NCBI GenBank assembly: GCA_018903055.1
Contig: JAHIPW010000040.1
Coordinates: forward strand, 1-6,043
Direction of reading: 5' to 3'
Source: DRGV01 sp018903055 [NCBI: bacterium]
GTDB taxonomy: Bacteria > UBP18 > UBA7526
DNA: 6,043 bases
Under the pieces are notes generated by a model, which had not been told where the DNA came from, did not search any database, and was given only the letters and a program-made list of their open reading frames with translations. The translations under genes were made by a program, and so were the position numbers. The stretch's first letter is position 1, and every line of letters begins with the position of its first letter. Below, piece by piece: positions 1,175-6,043 of this stretch.

Positions 1175-2104
1175 TTACTGGTTACTACTAAATAATTCAG
1201 TACTCAGGTATCTTTCTCCCGTATCTGGTAAAATAACAACAATTAACTTTCCCTTATTCTTAATTCTTCTTCCCACCTCTAAGGCAGCATGGACAGCAGC
1301 GCCAGACGATATTCCTCCCAGAATACCTTCTTCCCTTGCCAGTCTTCTGACCGTTTTAAAAGCATCCTCATCGCTTATTTGAAAGACCTTGTCAATCAAT
1401 GACCTATCCAGAACCTTGGGGATGAATCCCGCGCCAATTCCCTCAATTCTATGGGAACTGGCCGTCCCTCCAGAGAGGACAGGAGAAGAAGCGGGCTCGA
1501 CAGCGATTACTTTAATGTTTGGCTTCTTTTTCTTTAGATAGCGTGAGGTACCGGTAATCGTCCCCCCCGTGCCCACCCCGGCTACTAAGATATCTATCCT
1601 TCCTTCGGTATCTTCCCAGATCTCTGGTCCAGTAGTTCTTTCATGAATCTTAGGATTGGCTGGATTTTCAAACTGATTCAGAATGAAAGAATTGGGATCC
1701 CCTTTCGCCAATTCTCTTGCCTTTTCGATGGCTCCTCCCATCCCTTTCTCTTTCGGGGTCAAGACTATTTCCACGCCCAGAGAAGAAAGAATCTTTCTTC
1801 TCTCCTGGCTCACGTTTTCAGGCATAGTGAGTACCAGTCTATAGCCCCGAGAAGCAGAAACAGAGGCTAAGGCAATGCCCGTATTGCCGCTGGTAGCCTC
1901 AATGAGAGTTGTCTTTCCCGGAGTAATCTTTCCCTCTTTCTCTGCTGCTTCAATCATAGCCACCCCAATCCTATCCTTTACGCTTCCTAAAGGGTTGAAG
2001 AACTCCAACTTGGCCGCTATCTCAGCCCCTAATCCTTTAGTTATTCTATGCAACCTTACTAAAGGGGTCTTGCCAATGGTCTTTGTTATATCGGAATAAA
2101 TCAT
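1175..2104 (-). CDS. cysK: Cysteine synthase (O-acetylserine sulfhydrylase)
   Basis: This 309-residue protein is a PLP enzyme that makes L-cysteine from O-acetylserine and sulfide in the cytoplasm. The sequence shows the full family signature: the N-terminal IGKTPLVRL, the PLP-binding lysine at 43 in NPLGSVKDR, the substrate loop TSGNTG at 71-76, the phosphate-binding GTGGTITG at 178-185, GISSGA around 264-269, and [10 protein letters not shown] near the end. The length is typical of CysK. The ATG overlaps the cysE stop as ATGA, so the two are translationally coupled and the substrate-making enzyme comes first. The last few codons (SSNQ) and the TAA stop lie in the start of the repeat tract that fills the downstream gap, so the native C-terminus may have been slightly altered by repeat sequence. 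Cystathionine beta-synthase is a paralogue, but the motifs and cysE partnership favour CysK. Confidence 0.96.
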
Positions 2105-2745
2105 CTCTTCTTCTTTTCCAGTTTCTCTATTCTTTTCTCTAACTTCTCCTGTTTTTCTAAGAGGATATTGACCGCCTCGGCCACCGGATCGGGAAGTCTT
2201 CCATGTTCTAAGTCGATTCTGGGCTTCACCTTGGGCCTCTCCACCGCCCTTCCCGGAACACCAACCACTACCGCTCCCGGAGGAACGTCCTTTACTACCA
2301 CAGAGCCGGCACCGATTCGCGCCCCCTCACTAATCTCTATGGCCCCTAAGACAATGGCATCCGCACCAATTACCACCTTATTTCTGATGGTGGGATGGCG
2401 TTTCCCCTTCTCCTTCCCTGTTCCTCCTAAGGTTACTCCCTGATAGAGTAAGACATCGTCTCCTATCTCTGTCGTCTCACCGATGACCACTCCCGAGCCA
2501 TGATCGATAAAGAACCTTCTTCCAATCCTCGCCCCAGGATGGATCTCAATATCTGTTAGATGGCGACTGATTTGGGAGACAAATCTTCCTAAGAAACGCA
2601 GCCTGTGATTCCAGAAGAAATGGGCTATCCGATGGAACCAGAGGGCTTGGAGGCCAGGATAGCAGAATAGAACCTCCAAGAGATTCCTCGCAGCTGGATC
2701 CTCATCGAAGACCGTCCTGATATCTTCAGCTATTCTTTTAAACAT
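2101..2745 (-). CDS. cysE: Serine O-acetyltransferase
   Basis: This 214-residue enzyme acetylates serine with acetyl-CoA, the first committed step of cysteine synthesis. An N-terminal helical region (residues 1 to about 60) is followed by a left-handed beta-helix of hexapeptide repeats. The catalytic region is visible as [19 protein letters not shown] (His82 in the DHG motif), then [30 protein letters not shown] (His117) and [23 protein letters not shown]. The length and motifs match the short Bacillus-type CysE rather than the longer enterobacterial form. The C-terminal tail (about 195-214) is rich in Lys, Glu and Leu and probably forms a short charged coiled coil; it is not the usual Ile-ending peptide that docks into CysK, so formation of the classical cysteine synthase complex is doubtful. 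A good Shine-Dalgarno AGAGGTGG (2751-2758) precedes the ATG. cysK follows with a 4-bp overlap. Confidence 0.96.
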
Positions 2746-2761
2746 TTATTCCACCTCTAAT

Positions 2762-2790
2762 AAGATATTACATCCTATAAATTTTGTCAA
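2762..2790 (-). promoter_or_regulatory. Sigma-70-type promoter for cysE-cysK
   Basis: On the minus strand a perfect -35 box TTGACA (2785-2790) is followed after 17 bp by TATCTT (2762-2767), which matches four of six positions of the -10 consensus. It sits in the 81-bp gap between thi4 and cysE. The predicted transcription start is around 2755, giving a leader of only about ten bases that would cut into the Shine-Dalgarno, so the real start may differ. The leader is too short for a T-box or riboswitch. Confidence 0.6.
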
Positions 2791-2826
2791 TAATTAATGC
2801 ACAGGGGATACAAGGGTAACAGGGGG

Positions 2827-3600
2827 TCATATTCTCTTTGCTATAAGTTGGGCAACCTTCTTTCCAGATAAAAGCATCCCTCCGAAAATGGGACCCATTC
2901 TCGGACCACCGAAGACGGCATTGGCCGCCATTCCGGCCACATAGGCCCCAGGATAGAACTCCTTAGTATTCTTGACAATGGCCCTCTCCCCAACCTCGGC
3001 CCACATGGGCTCTTCACCAACAATCCCTCCTGTTCTGGTTTTTAATCTTGTCCCCAACTTCCTTTGGATAATCTTGGCTACTTCGCAGGGGTGGCCCGTA
3101 GCCTCTACTAGAAACTTCGCCCTTATTGTCATGGGATCGACATGGAGATTTGCCAATTCCACGCTACTCCAGTTTAGGACAAAGCCCGTTACCCTATCCT
3201 TCCTCATCTCAACGTCTTCTACGCTCATGAGATTAAAAACTTGGGCCCCGGCTTTAACCGCCTTAGAAGCTAAAGTGGTCACGGCCTCAATGGCATCCGC
3301 CACATAGTATCCCTTCTTATATTCTTTATTTCTAATTCCGAACTCATCCAAGATTTTCTTGCCTTCAGAGCAGACAACGATGCTGTTGAACATCATCCCC
3401 CCACCCCACATGCCGCCACCAACAGATAACTTCCTCTCGAATAGAACTACCTTTTTCTTTGCTTTGGCAAGATAGTAAGCAGCGCAAAGGCCCGCTGGTC
3501 CTCCACCAGCAATGGCCACATCAGAAGACAAATAATCCCTAAACTTCTTGGTAAAAGTTTCTATTATCGCCTCGGTTATGATGATCTCATCCAGTTTCAT
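2827..3600 (-). CDS. thi4: Thi4 family sulfide-dependent ADP-thiazole synthase
   Basis: This 257-residue flavoprotein-fold enzyme belongs to the Thi4 family, which builds the ADP-thiazole precursor of thiamin from NAD and glycine. The dinucleotide-binding [14 protein letters not shown] begins at residue 32 and the following acidic Glu55 closes the beta-alpha-beta unit. [11 protein letters not shown] (61-71), [16 protein letters not shown] (141-156), [10 protein letters not shown] and the C-terminal [20 protein letters not shown] are family hallmarks. In yeast and plant enzymes a cysteine before M-D-P gives up its sulfur in a suicide reaction. Here the same place holds His153 in LHVDP, as in methanogen enzymes that use free sulfide catalytically with iron. 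The assignment to the sulfide-using class is therefore by motif. A strong AGGAGGAGGAG site lies just before the ATG, and a consensus promoter lies upstream. It is separated from cysE by 81 bp with another promoter. No thiamin riboswitch fits in the short leader. Confidence 0.95.
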
Positions 3601-3719: not shown

Positions 3720-4763
3720 TTAGATCCTGGTGATTCCCAACTCCGTAGCATCGACTGGGGTTACAATTATAGATTTAATCTTTCCATCTGGCAATCTCTT
3801 ATAACTTACCTTTACTCTGGGGGATTCTTTTCCATCGCTATATCGTGCACAGAGAGAGGCCGCCTCTTCTAAAGTCTCCGCATCCCCGCCTGCCTCCCCG
3901 CCTGCGCCGAAGCTTCGGCGGGCAGGTGCGGGGCACGAGCGGGCAGGCAAATTTCCCCGAACAATGGCCAGGGGTCCTTTGTGACCTATCACATTGAAAG
4001 AGGCATCTCCCCCCTTAGCGAGAGCCTTCAGCTTCTTATTCTCTTCCTTATTCCTTCCAATTACAATCTTTAATCCAGTTGAGGACCTGAAGTGTCTTCC
4101 CAATTTGAGGAGTAGAATATTATCTAAGGTATATTCGTTATGCTCCAAGAGGTCCTTCAGGCGTCTGGAAAATATGGAATCTGTTAAAAGACAGCCACCT
4201 GCTGGAGTCCCATACTCCTTCAGATTATATCTTCTGGCTAACTCCAGTTGGGGCTTTCGGCTCTTTCCAGAAAGGGCCAATAACTTCTCTCTATTAATCG
4301 ATCCTCTTTTTTCTGGGTCTGTAATTGGTAGGAGTTTAGCAGAAAGGGGTCTTAGAAGTTTTCCCAAAATATCTGCTCTCTTTGCTATGGCTTCCAGGAT
4401 TTGCTTATTCTGGGACCTCGGTCGCTGCCCCACTACCTCTCCACTGATGATGAAGGAGGCCTTTGCTTCGAGCATCTCTTCCTTTGCCTTCTGGGCCATC
4501 AGGATGTGACAGTCGATGCAGGGGTTCATATTCTTCCCATAGCCATACCTGGGGTTCTTAATGATCTCCAATATCTCGCTTGATACATCTCTGATATAGA
4601 GATTGATCCCCAGTTCCTCTGCCGCTTTCTTGGCATTCTCTGGGCCAAAGAAGGGAGAAGTAAAACTTATCCCCTCAACTTCAATCCCCTGCTCCTGAAT
4701 TAACTTAACCGCTAAGGAGCTATCCAGCCCACCAGATAATAAGGCTAAGGCCCTGATTTTCAT
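3720..4763 (-). CDS. PP-loop ATPase with C-terminal NFACT-R/DUF814-like domain; probable tRNA sulfurtransferase (ThiI/MnmA-like)
   Basis: The 347-residue protein opens with ALLSGGLDSSLAVKL, a PP-loop (SGGLDS at 10-15) of the ATP-pyrophosphatases that adenylate tRNA uridines before sulfur transfer. NPCIDCH gives a Cys82-x-x-Cys85 pair, and TPAGGCLLTD gives Cys191, placed like catalytic cysteines in MnmA/ThiI relatives. Residues from about 215 (LKLGRHFRSSTGLKIVIGRNKEEN) resemble the NFACT-R (DUF814) RNA-binding domain, which is known fused to ThiI-like PP-loops. This supports a tRNA-thiolation role, but which base it modifies cannot be told. I chose the ATG at 4763 because GAGGAG lies just before it; an in-frame ATG at 4775 has no ribosome site and would add only four residues. 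Residues 273-293 are encoded by a GC-rich palindromic repeat of the same family as one in mnmA, inserted between IVRGN and the final domain strand. It follows mnmA after a short repeat-bearing gap. Confidence 0.85.
   Translation of the reverse strand: MKIRALALLSGGLDSSLAVKLIQEQGIEVEGISFTSPFFGPENAKKAAEELGINLYIRDVSSEILEIIKNPRYGYGKNMNPCIDCHILMAQKAKEEMLEAKASFIISGEVVGQRPRSQNKQILEAIAKRADILGKLLRPLSAKLLPITDPEKRGSINREKLLALSGKSRKPQLELARRYNLKEYGTPAGGCLLTDSIFSRRLKDLLEHNEYTLDNILLLKLGRHFRSSTGLKIVIGRNKEENKKLKALAKGGDASFNVIGHKGPLAIVRGNLPARSCPAPARRSFGAGGEAGGDAETLEEAASLCARYSDGKESPRVKVSYKRLPDGKIKSIIVTPVDATELGITRI
3885..3947 (-). repeat. In-frame GC-rich palindromic repeat inside the PP-loop/NFACT-R gene
   Basis: These 63 bp encode residues 273-293, rich in Pro, Ala, Arg and Gly. 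The core (3897-3926, 30 bp) starts CCTGCCCGCCGAA and ends GCAGGCGGGG, with a perfect 16-bp palindrome at 3905-3920. Partial copies of the same arms (CCTGCCCGC and GGCAGGCGGGG) flank the core, giving a nested inverted repeat. The whole is a multiple of three and leaves the frame open. GC content is far above that of the surrounding gene. Confidence 0.85.
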
Positions 4764-4767
4764 CCTA

Positions 4768-4773
4768 CTCCTC
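4768..4773 (-). promoter_or_regulatory. Ribosome binding site that sets the PP-loop gene start
   Basis: GAGGAG on the minus strand lies four bases before the ATG at 4763. It overlaps the alternative upstream ATG at 4775, which itself is preceded by a C-run and repeats without any purine-rich site. This favours the shorter protein. Confidence 0.5.
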
Positions 4774-4780
4774 ATGGGGG

Positions 4781-4851
4781 TATCAGGATATCAGGACATC
4801 AGGGAATCAGGAACTTCCCGATCACCTGATAACTCGATAACCCGATCACCT
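4781..4851. repeat. Short tandem and direct repeats in the mnmA to PP-loop gene gap
   Basis: On the plus strand the gap begins with degenerate tandem copies of an 8-9 bp unit, TATCAGGA (4781-4814). It continues with two exact 11-bp copies of CCCGATCACCT (4817-4827 and 4841-4851), 24 bp apart, separated by GATAAC-type words. No promoter or terminator is evident, so the PP-loop gene is probably read through from mnmA. Confidence 0.75.
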
Positions 4852-4855
4852 CTTA

Positions 4856-5932
4856 TCAAACGATCCAGCCCCCCCCAAGGACAATATCCCCGCCTGCTCC
4901 GACCGCCTTCGACGGACGGATTCGGCGGGCAGGCTTATCGTAGAAGACCACTGCCTGTCCGGGAGTAATTGCTCTCTGGGGTTTCTCAAATTTTACCCTT
5001 ACCCTATTTTTAGATAGAGGGGTGACTGTCGCTTCTGCTTCTTTATGCTGATACCTTATCTTTGCTTTCACCCTTCTGGACCCCTTTAATCCATCGATGG
5101 CAATCCAGTTAACATCTCTTGCTATTAGTTCATCTCTGAGTATCTCTTTCTCACTTCCCACAACAATTACATTTTTGCTGTTATCAATAGCGACGACATA
5201 TAGAGGCTTTCCAAGGGCAACTCCCAACCATCTTCTCTGACCAATGGTATAGAAGGCGATCCCCTTATGTTTTCCCAAGACCTTCCCTTCCCTATCAACA
5301 ATCAACCCTTCCTTTAATCTATCTGCGGTAATCTGCGTTCCGAGGAATCTGCGGTAATCTGCGTCCGGGACGAAACATATCTCCTGACTGGATGGTCTGT
5401 TGTGAATTCCCAGTTCCCTTGCTTTTTTTCTAACCTCTTCTTTAGTGAAATTGGCCAAAGGAAACAAGGTATGCTTCAGTTGCTTTTGATTCAGAATGCA
5501 TAAGACATAGGACTGGTCTTTTTTTCTATCTCTTCCCTTCTTTAATAGATACCTTTTTCTTTTTTTATCGTAGGTTACCTTTGCATAGTGGCCGGTGGCG
5601 ATATAATCCGCTTTCAGTTCCTTTGCTTTTTTCAGGAGAGCCTTAAACTTTATCTTCCTATTACAGACAACACAGGGATTAGGGGTGCGGCCCTTAGAAT
5701 ATTCTCTTGTAAAGTAGTTGATCACCTTTTTCTCAAACTCTTTCTTGAGATTGAGAGAGTAGAAGGGGATATCTAACTTAGAGGCCATGCTTCTGGCAGG
5801 CTCTTCTGCATTCAGAGCACAGGCCAGATTGAGATGCACCCCAACAACCTCGTATCCCCTCTCCTTCAAGAGAAGAGCGGCCACAGAAGAGTCCACTCCC
5901 CCACTCATCCCAACTAAAACCTTCTTCTTCAC
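4856..5932 (-). CDS. mnmA: tRNA-specific 2-thiouridylase MnmA
   Basis: This 358-residue enzyme activates U34 of Lys, Glu and Gln tRNAs with ATP and installs sulfur to give 2-thiouridine. The PP-loop SGGVDSS is at 10-16. The catalytic Cys87 lies in TPNPCVVCNRKIKF and the persulfide Cys186 in SSQEICFVPD. ATGHYAKV, FYTIGQRRWLGVALGKPLYV and the C-terminal beta-barrel ending ITPGQAVVFYD ... VLGGGWI are all typical. The start is GTG, overlapping the stop of the upstream gene as GTGA; it is the only start that keeps the complete PP-loop strand. No clear Shine-Dalgarno is seen, because the upstream bases are a tandem repeat, so translation is probably coupled. Two oddities: residues 334-348 are an in-frame GC-rich repeat insertion where the family normally has a very short turn, and residues about 190-204 are encoded by an 18-bp direct repeat read in two frames. 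All catalytic residues are intact. Confidence 0.97.
   Translation of the reverse strand: MKKKVLVGMSGGVDSSVAALLLKERGYEVVGVHLNLACALNAEEPARSMASKLDIPFYSLNLKKEFEKKVINYFTREYSKGRTPNPCVVCNRKIKFKALLKKAKELKADYIATGHYAKVTYDKKRKRYLLKKGRDRKKDQSYVLCILNQKQLKHTLFPLANFTKEEVRKKARELGIHNRPSSQEICFVPDADYRRFLGTQITADRLKEGLIVDREGKVLGKHKGIAFYTIGQRRWLGVALGKPLYVVAIDNSKNVIVVGSEKEILRDELIARDVNWIAIDGLKGSRRVKAKIRYQHKEAEATVTPLSKNRVRVKFEKPQRAITPGQAVVFYDKPARRIRPSKAVGAGGDIVLGGGWIV
4889..4933 (-). repeat. In-frame GC-rich palindromic repeat inside mnmA
   Basis: These 45 bp encode residues 334-348 between the conserved VVFYD and VLGGGW segments. The left end CCTGCCCGCCGAA and right end GCAGGCGGGG are identical to those of the element in the PP-loop gene, and it is read in the same frame (PARR ... 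GAGG). The middle differs and is 15 bp longer. Both arms are near-complementary, so the element can fold. Confidence 0.88.
5321..5364 (-). repeat. 18-bp direct repeat pair inside mnmA
   Basis: On the plus strand ATCTGCGGTAATCTGCGT occurs at 5321-5338 and exactly again at 5347-5364. The period is 26 bp, so the two copies are read in different frames: one gives ADYRRF, the other TQITAD. Each copy is itself a near-tandem of ATCTGCG. Confidence 0.9.
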
Positions 5933-6043
5933 CTCTGTGTTCTCTGTGGTTTTCTCTGTGTCCTCTGTGGTTCCCAGACACCGGATATCTTCGCCCCACA
6001 GTATTTACATCTTCCCTCTATCTTACCCCCGGTAAAAGCGTAA
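5929..6043 (-). CDS. amrS: C-terminal end of a CxxCG protein, probably AmmeMemoRadiSam-system radical SAM enzyme; 5' part outside window
   Basis: A frame open from the window edge (first full codon at 6042) runs 37 codons to a TGA at 5929-5931. Its residues include GGKIEGRCKYCGAKISGVW, with a Cys-x-x-Cys-Gly and a closing Ile-x-Gly-Val-Trp. From memory, this pattern matches the extreme C-terminus of the AmmeMemoRadiSam radical SAM enzymes (relatives of pyruvate formate-lyase activating enzyme), which end in a small cysteine knuckle followed by a G-V-W. The radical SAM core would lie outside the window, so the identity is tentative; another zinc-knuckle protein is possible. After the Trp, the last 14 codons are almost wholly encoded by a 21-bp tandem repeat and give P-Q-R-T-Q-R-K-P-Q-R-T-Q-R, a tail unlikely to be native. 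The stop overlaps the mnmA GTG start by four bases, indicating an operon. Confidence 0.5.
   Translation of the reverse strand, partial: YAFTGGKIEGRCKYCGAKISGVWEPQRTQRKPQRTQR
5933..5971 (-). repeat. 21-bp tandem repeat at the amrS/mnmA junction
   Basis: On the minus strand ACCACAGAGGACACAGAG (5954-5971) recurs 21 bp later as ACCACAGAGAACACAGAG (5933-5950), with one mismatch in 18. It codes for the C-terminal tail of the upstream gene and ends immediately before the mnmA GTG, occupying the place where its ribosome site would be. Confidence 0.88.

Follow-up and report, generated by a model that had tools for sequence, protein, structure and literature searches.

The mnmA gene of an uncultured bacterium carries a 45-bp palindromic insertion that leaves its reading frame intact, and its ThiI/MnmA-like neighbour carries a 63-bp insertion that encloses a complete copy of a related 30-bp unit. 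Both insertions are exact and in frame, the family of the 30-bp unit, here called P1, is dispersed, and its members recur in the same genes and loops of other species. Taken as a whole, the observations are very probably explained by a small dispersed family of GC-rich palindromes, inserted with the frame kept and tolerated in loops. The original prediction, made from the letters of the window alone (the window being the whole stretch of 6,043 nucleotides analysed here), had described 4889–4933 as a palindromic in-frame insert covering MnmA residues 334–348; this observation is confirmed and proves broader than described, and the accompanying interpretation is partly supported.

The window corresponds to contig C16 in a draft genome of 1.085 Mb (G000; 191 contigs, 85% complete, 2.95% contamination), with which five further genomes of the same family, G001–G005, were compared, the six family genomes being 53–93% complete. 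The MnmA proteins of G002 and G004 are identical to those of bacterium UBP18_UBA7526 and 'bacterium isolate CSMAG_2758', and from these identities we provisionally term the lineage UBP18-type. The identified genes, all on the minus strand, are mnmA, the ThiI/MnmA-like gene with its NFACT-R_2 domain, ADP-thiazole synthase, cysE, cysK and a relative of methanogenesis marker 16 (Table 1 lists the features discussed). The product of mnmA is assigned to MnmA with 411 bits against the NCBIfam cut-off of 284. The relative of methanogenesis marker 16, at 1–945, is a distant one of that metalloprotein in a bacterium (TIGR03287, 115 bits, below the cut-off of 364). The intergenic stretches 961–1195 and 4776–4856 hold short-period arrays, with a GC-rich hairpin-like stretch seen by eye at about 1060–1095, and at the mnmA start (5933–5972) there are CTCTGTGTTCTCTGTGGTT-type repeats, present there in G004 and G005 also, which are read as TTEDTEKTTEDTE.

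Table 1. Features of the window discussed in the text
Feature	Position	Strand	Basis
mnmA, tRNA 2-thiouridine(34) synthase, 358 codons + stop	4856..5932	-	NCBIfam NF001138, Pfam PF03054, PF20259, PF20258
45-bp P1-type palindromic insertion in mnmA, codes PARRIRPSKAVGAGG	4889..4933	-	empty site in four relatives; hairpin
ThiI/MnmA-like PP-loop protein gene with NFACT-R_2 domain	3720..4775	-	Pfam PF18297, PF03054, PF02568
63-bp nested P1 insertion in ThiI/NFACT-R_2-like gene, codes PARSCPAPARRSFGAGGEAGG	3885..3947	-	empty site in relatives
30-bp P1 core within 63-bp insertion	3897..3926	-	P1 pattern match, zero mismatches

On the minus strand the mnmA insert reads CCTGCCCGCCGAATCCGTCCGTCGAAGGCGGTCGGAGCAGGCGGG, is translated as PARRIRPSKAVGAGG (residues 334–348 of 358) and is flanked by TTCTACGATAAG and GATATTGTCCTT. 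The site is empty in all four relatives compared (G002–G005): uninterrupted, it reads TTCTATGATAAGGATATTGTCCT in G003 and G004, and the junction without the insert is VVFYDKDIVLGGGWI in G003 and G004, VVFYDKNIVLGGGWI in G005 and VVFYDRDMVIGGGWI in G002. The insert is absent also from the other MnmA C-termini displayed, which comprise only the loci matching a motif search. An ancestral non-repeat insertion, named in the original prediction as a contrary outcome, is rejected on account of this empty site, and none of the aligned MnmA proteins of G002–G005 has a homologous non-repeat insertion there. The arms said to be shared with the sister copy were found, namely a 13-bp left arm common to the copy in the next gene and a right arm of about 10 bp, and the two window copies are alike above chance within their own genome (E 9.3e-5, 82% identity, query bases 27–74). 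The 45-bp copy has no match to the 30-bp P1 pattern described below and was caught by a looser pattern; it is a probable member of P1, assigned only by its shared arms and this looser search.

The RNA fold of 4880–4940 beats dinucleotide shuffles (z −4.3, 0 of 200 as good), as does the DNA fold (z −2.5, 2 of 200 as good), and the insert alone folds better than 499 of 500 mononucleotide shuffles. In an AlphaFold2 model of the window MnmA, built on an alignment of 39 sequences, the mean pLDDT is 92.4 and residues 340–345 fall below 50. The insert, proposed earlier as a possible loop, is accordingly modelled as a poorly ordered one, predicted to lie between barrel strands 327–332 and 350–357.

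The bin contains a second mnmA (G000:C38; L147 2476–3564), which is 66% identical to that of the window, lacks the insert and adjoins nadA, as in G001, to whose mnmA it is 83% identical. This second gene is either a paralogue or a binning error, and it brings the ESSENTIALITY caveat that the window mnmA may be under relaxed constraint if the C38 gene is from the same organism. The earlier view of a repeat tolerated as coding sequence in an essential-type enzyme therefore stands in that the insert is kept as coding, whereas 'essential-type' is weakened because the bin holds this insert-free gene. An 18-bp exact direct repeat, ATCTGCGGTAATCTGCGT, lies elsewhere inside mnmA (5321–5338 and 5347–5364), and a similar motif borders a P1-like copy in G003 valS; considered as a second insertion, it was rejected, the MnmA proteins of G004 and G005 being equal in length there. 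A tblastn search of MnmA against phage records gave 24 records, all below 60% identity, with no bearing on the insert.

In the neighbouring gene, the insert PARSCPAPARRSFGAGGEAGG splits VRGNL|DAETLEEAASLC, for which G003 reads VRGNLDAETLEEAASLC. The exact empty site in the G003 gene is GGAAATTTG|GATGCGGAG, and G002 and G004 are empty too. The sister copy had been placed at 3897–3926, which is indeed present as the 30-bp P1 core but is only part of the 63-bp insertion, in which an outer P1-like hairpin encloses the complete 30-bp P1 (predicted fold nested, −39.6 kcal/mol). G005 has an unlike palindrome, CCGCCGGCCCAGAGGGCCTCTGGCCCGGAGGGG (PPAQRASGPEG), in the same ThiI-like loop, one codon away; one loop has therefore been struck independently by two different palindromes.

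The distribution of P1 was determined by searching 290 genomes with the 30-base pattern CCTGCCYGCCGAAGCYTCGGCGNAGGCRGG at up to three mismatches, with the reversed pattern as control. The 30-bp core occurs at 30 places in 12 of the 290 genomes, and the control gave 0 in every genome. Carriers within the family are G000, G001, G003, G004 and G005, and those outside it (G043, G155, G168, G184, G185, G188 and G271) represent seven other families. P1 is not abundant: at the 30-base pattern, G000, for which further copies had been anticipated, has five places, and G002 has none. The 15-base core, at up to two mismatches, matches nine places in G000 against one for the reversed pattern; four of the nine are edges of another palindrome family, which leaves five, and the window holds two of these. 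A search of 80 named loci (516 kb) at up to five mismatches found one further P1 copy (control 0). The MnmA of 'Candidatus Omnitrophota bacterium CSMAG_2090' has an in-frame P1 copy, SARRSLGAGG, elsewhere in the protein than that of the window. IMG/VR yielded 17 exact P1 matches in 16 stretches from 15 putatively viral contigs, and the PLSDB plasmids gave no match to the typed 30-mer at E up to 0.01. A looser search of sampled G000 and G003 DNA recovered 11 P1-like copies (27–51 bp as matched, seven in ORFs), several of which coincide with places of the 30-base pattern, and two of which are new, in genes that we take from their sequences to be HydF-like and PriA-like. P1 and P1-like copies range from 21 to 63 bp with a typical unit of 30 bp, and some P1 copies sit inside short-period arrays.

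Twelve of the 30 P1 places are in ORFs that could be assigned to a protein family. Nine P1-bearing ORFs were scanned against Pfam and eight gave matches (L232 gave none): UvrD (G184), an AroA–cytidylate kinase fusion (G043), V/A-ATPase A (G003), DnaX (G004), a transglutaminase protein (G043), an MMPL protein (G000), the GyrA C-terminal region (G003) and a GH38 mannosidase (G188). Three others, L245 and L256 (DnaX of G005 and G003) and L234 (GyrA tail of G001, printed residues only), were assigned by likeness to scanned relatives, and L235 is the window itself. Only UvrD and ATPase A have P1 within a matched Pfam domain. The fusion protein, DnaX and GH38 carry it between domains, and in the remaining scanned cases it lies outside the domain that was matched. 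The P1 peptide in the V/A-ATPase A of G003 stands opposite a gap of nine residues in PDB 1vdz_A. The UvrD of G184 was rejected as a clean insertion and is a doubtful case, because its alignment with PcrA gives a net gain of only three residues. One DnaX site is common to G003 and G004, and G005 uses another site in another frame. In addition, ValS of G003 has a 21-bp P1-like copy (LSAEEAG) that is missing from G000, and a P1-like in-frame copy is also present in birA.

The same palindrome is read in different ways. The frame giving PARR...GAGG or the like is used in both window genes, the MMPL protein, the Omnitrophota MnmA and the PriA-like gene; PPxPxLRRAG in the fusion protein, ATPase A, the DnaX of G005, the transglutaminase and the GyrA tail; LRRGFGGQ in the DnaX of G003 and G004; PDYAKASSGR in GH38; and LSAAPAQAG or LSAEEAG in the HydF-like gene and the ValS of G003. 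Since at least five of the six P1 frames are used in genes of several genomes, in both orientations, the common frame pointed out in the original prediction holds for the two window genes but not as a regularity, and it needs no explanation, because a chance match of strand and frame has a probability of 1/6. There are no stops in the six frames of either window copy or of the 30-bp core, and one common variant is interrupted by a stop in a single frame. Openness in six frames is found in only 1.5% of random 45-mers from the genome sample, against 30% of composition shuffles, so that GC content accounts for much of the openness of P1.

To place the two inserts among length differences in general, we compared 285 kb of G000, which include the window and of which 268 kb are free of Ns, with 674 kb of G003. 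Of 116 gene pairs, 25 that overlapped were dropped, and the remaining 91 have a median identity of 83%. The pairs contain 32 indels of at least five residues, with G000 the longer in 19 and G003 in 13; because many contigs were chosen for matches, these counts should not be taken as an unbiased rate for the genome. Eleven of the 32 surpass, in how well they fold, 98% of length-matched random coding stretches, a control that does not keep GC and predicts about 0.6: on the G000 side both window inserts, argS, birA, nadC, ybeY, a SPOR protein and a zinc-finger protein, and on the G003 side a polysaccharide deacetylase, L170:6007–7278 (without family search) and valS (via an antisense ORF). Against 500 composition shuffles, seven indels pass 0.02 and ten pass 0.05, with 0.6 and 1.6 expected. 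Those passing 0.02 are both window inserts, argS, the deacetylase, the zinc-finger and SPOR proteins and a lower-identity gene, L199:5139–6341; birA, valS and L199:2517–3743 pass 0.05 only; and nadC (0.29), ybeY (0.09) and L170:6007–7278 (0.30) fail once GC is kept. The window inserts pass both hairpin tests. By the first test the other 21 indels do not qualify as hairpins; short-period arrays account for some of them (valS, murF), and alignment noise may account for others.

GC-rich hairpins number 37 in the 268 kb of G000 (21 in ORFs; Markov control 11) and 73 in the 674 kb of G003 (39 in ORFs; control 15), a tally that we rejected as a count of insertions because it mixes native coding hairpins with inserts. 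Other repeat families are present as well. One of them, bounded by CCCCGTTAGA...TCTAACGGGG, possesses terminal inverted repeats and shows an exact 4-bp duplication in 14 of its 23 copies, which marks it as a MITE; it was seen in frame in two genes (L206:1417–2037 and L178:12320–13498). The palindrome GCCGAAGGCGAGGTCTCGCC was located at 11 places with no more than three mismatches (control 0), and several of these places are in genes. The valS gene of G000, split over L154 (G000:C133) 1–1599 and L153 (G000:C116) 1446–3083, carries several large in-frame repeat composites made of short-period arrays and palindromes, and at one of these places G003 has a different stretch. In murF (L160:7576–8844 and L180:1–750), G000 and G003 have differing, partly repeat-like stretches at the same position.

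We infer that P1 is mobile from its presence and absence between species and its spread over loci and families, and mobility thus keeps the inferential standing it had in the original prediction. P1 would insert into DNA without an evident target-site duplication, none being seen at the two window sites, AAG|GAT and TTG|GAT. A copy landing in a gene would add a short peptide rich in Ala, Arg, Gly and Pro; since the lengths of the window copies and of the typical unit are divisible by three and their frames are all or nearly all free of stops, the reading frame would usually stay open. Selection would then remove copies that disturb the fold and keep those in tolerant loops, such as the barrel loop of MnmA. 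ORFs make up 89% and 91% of the sampled DNA and 12 of the 30 places are in recognised genes, which suggests that most genic insertions are lost, a rough estimate in which the ORF share is taken from the G000 and G003 samples rather than from the seven distant genomes and ORFs without a family are uncounted. P1 is probably best regarded as a passenger that survives in genes where it is placed in loops, presumably neutral, translated and filtered by selection. A bolder version, in which P1 is a horizontally circulating, protein-compatible micro-parasite that spreads by virtue of its length (a multiple of three) and nearly stop-free frames and is moved by an undescribed enzyme or process, is speculative and has perhaps one chance in a few of being right; if true, the proteins of P1 hosts would be continually seeded with the same short peptides.

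How such a unit moves bears on two other accounts, both of which we consider unlikely and to the same degree. P1 could belong to the canonical REP-type repeats and be mobilised by a REP-associated tyrosine (Y1/HUH) transposase, as its short, imperfect palindrome and the lack of duplications at the window sites would allow, and REPs inside genes are documented (PMC3733652). However, Y1_Tnp (PF01797) was found in 0 of the 6 family genomes against 5 of 14 positive controls, a comparison in which incompleteness (53–93%) could hide a gene, and the ends of P1 are paired, without the unpaired GTAG/CGTC tag as defined in that paper (PMC3733652). DDE_Tnp_1 (PF01609) was likewise found in 0 of these 6 incomplete genomes and in 9 of 14 positive controls. 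Alternatively, the hairpins could arise locally, by template switching or slippage on quasi-palindromes and with no transposition, an origin that fits the lack of target-site duplications at the window sites, the several unlike hairpin families and the P1 copies within short-period arrays, but not the recurrence of the same 30-bp sequence at unlinked sites and across unrelated genomes (0 matches for the control), nor the empty mnmA and ThiI-like sites, which contain no hairpin precursor.

Two remaining accounts are far less probable. The strength of the RNA hairpin (−32.5 kcal/mol with flanks, and the z-score given above) would suit retention for a role in the mRNA, such as translation pausing, stability or attenuation, yet the insert is missing from the mnmA of four relatives, and P1 occurs in unrelated genes, in several frames and both orientations, and we regard such a role as highly improbable. 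Least credible of all, by a small step, is an assembly or binning artefact: the draft is fragmented, with some contamination, and its bin has the second mnmA, but the gene is in frame on both sides of the insert, the same type of insertion is found in other genomes, and the identity between the window and G003 (mean 87% over six pairs) is in line with most other contigs (72–92%, with three at 54–59%). The insertion of a dispersed palindrome family remains our preferred reading.

Peptides of environmental proteins such as PARRSLGAGG can be repeat-derived, and then carry no homology signal. How selfish DNA comes to add segments to proteins, and by what process 30-bp hairpins move, become questions that comparative genomics can test across many lineages. 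Palindromes in frame are known above all from Rickettsia, and some other species supply REP cases. The present example is a tiny palindrome within conserved enzymes of an uncultured lineage that is not rickettsial; its 30-bp core recurs in an Omnitrophota MnmA and in genomes from seven further families, and in sister species one loop has received different palindromes. No report of such palindromes in UBP18 or candidate phyla was found in the searched open-licence literature, which covers few subscription journals.

The very small mobile repeats of cyanobacteria, the SDRs, are tiny hairpins, some within short tandem arrays. P1 resembles them in that some of its copies lie within arrays, a likeness taken from their general description rather than from sequences. 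In-frame palindromes themselves are already known, as RPEs and intragenic REPs, from PMC10969869, PMC3767692 and PMC3733652. RPEs and WPEs are described there as palindromic repeat families found in frame in unrelated protein genes, several per genome (PMC10969869, PMC3767692), the RPEs, from Rickettsia and Wolbachia, being about 100–150 bp long (PMC3767692). The analogy with RPEs drawn in the original prediction has held up: P1 is a hairpin-forming palindromic family, repeat-derived, inserted in frame into existing protein genes and kept as coding, and it appears to work like Rickettsia palindromic elements, a likeness of behaviour rather than a comparison of sequences. It differs in its length of 21–63 bp and in its hosts, a UBP18-type lineage and other bacterial families. 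MITEs, which PMC10969869 describes as non-autonomous repeats that may fuse in frame, differ from P1, which has no target-site duplication at the two window sites. As to a related autonomous element, the two transposase families searched for, PF01797 and PF01609, were each found in 0 of the six incomplete genomes. GTAG/CGTC REPs are palindromes of 20–40 bp, placed mostly between genes and in several species also inside them, according to PMC3733652. The 30-bp core of P1, an imperfect palindrome, has this length, and the window inserts (45 and 63 bp) are longer; unlike in REPs, the ends of the 30-bp unit are paired, GTAG is only internal and only in some copies, no RAYT (Y1 transposase) is found in the six genomes at 53–93% completeness, and 12 of 30 places are in family-tied ORFs, against the mostly intergenic REPs (PMC3733652). 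Because P1 departs from RPEs in length and from REPs in the tag and the RAYT, we class it as a variant that works like RPEs and REPs.
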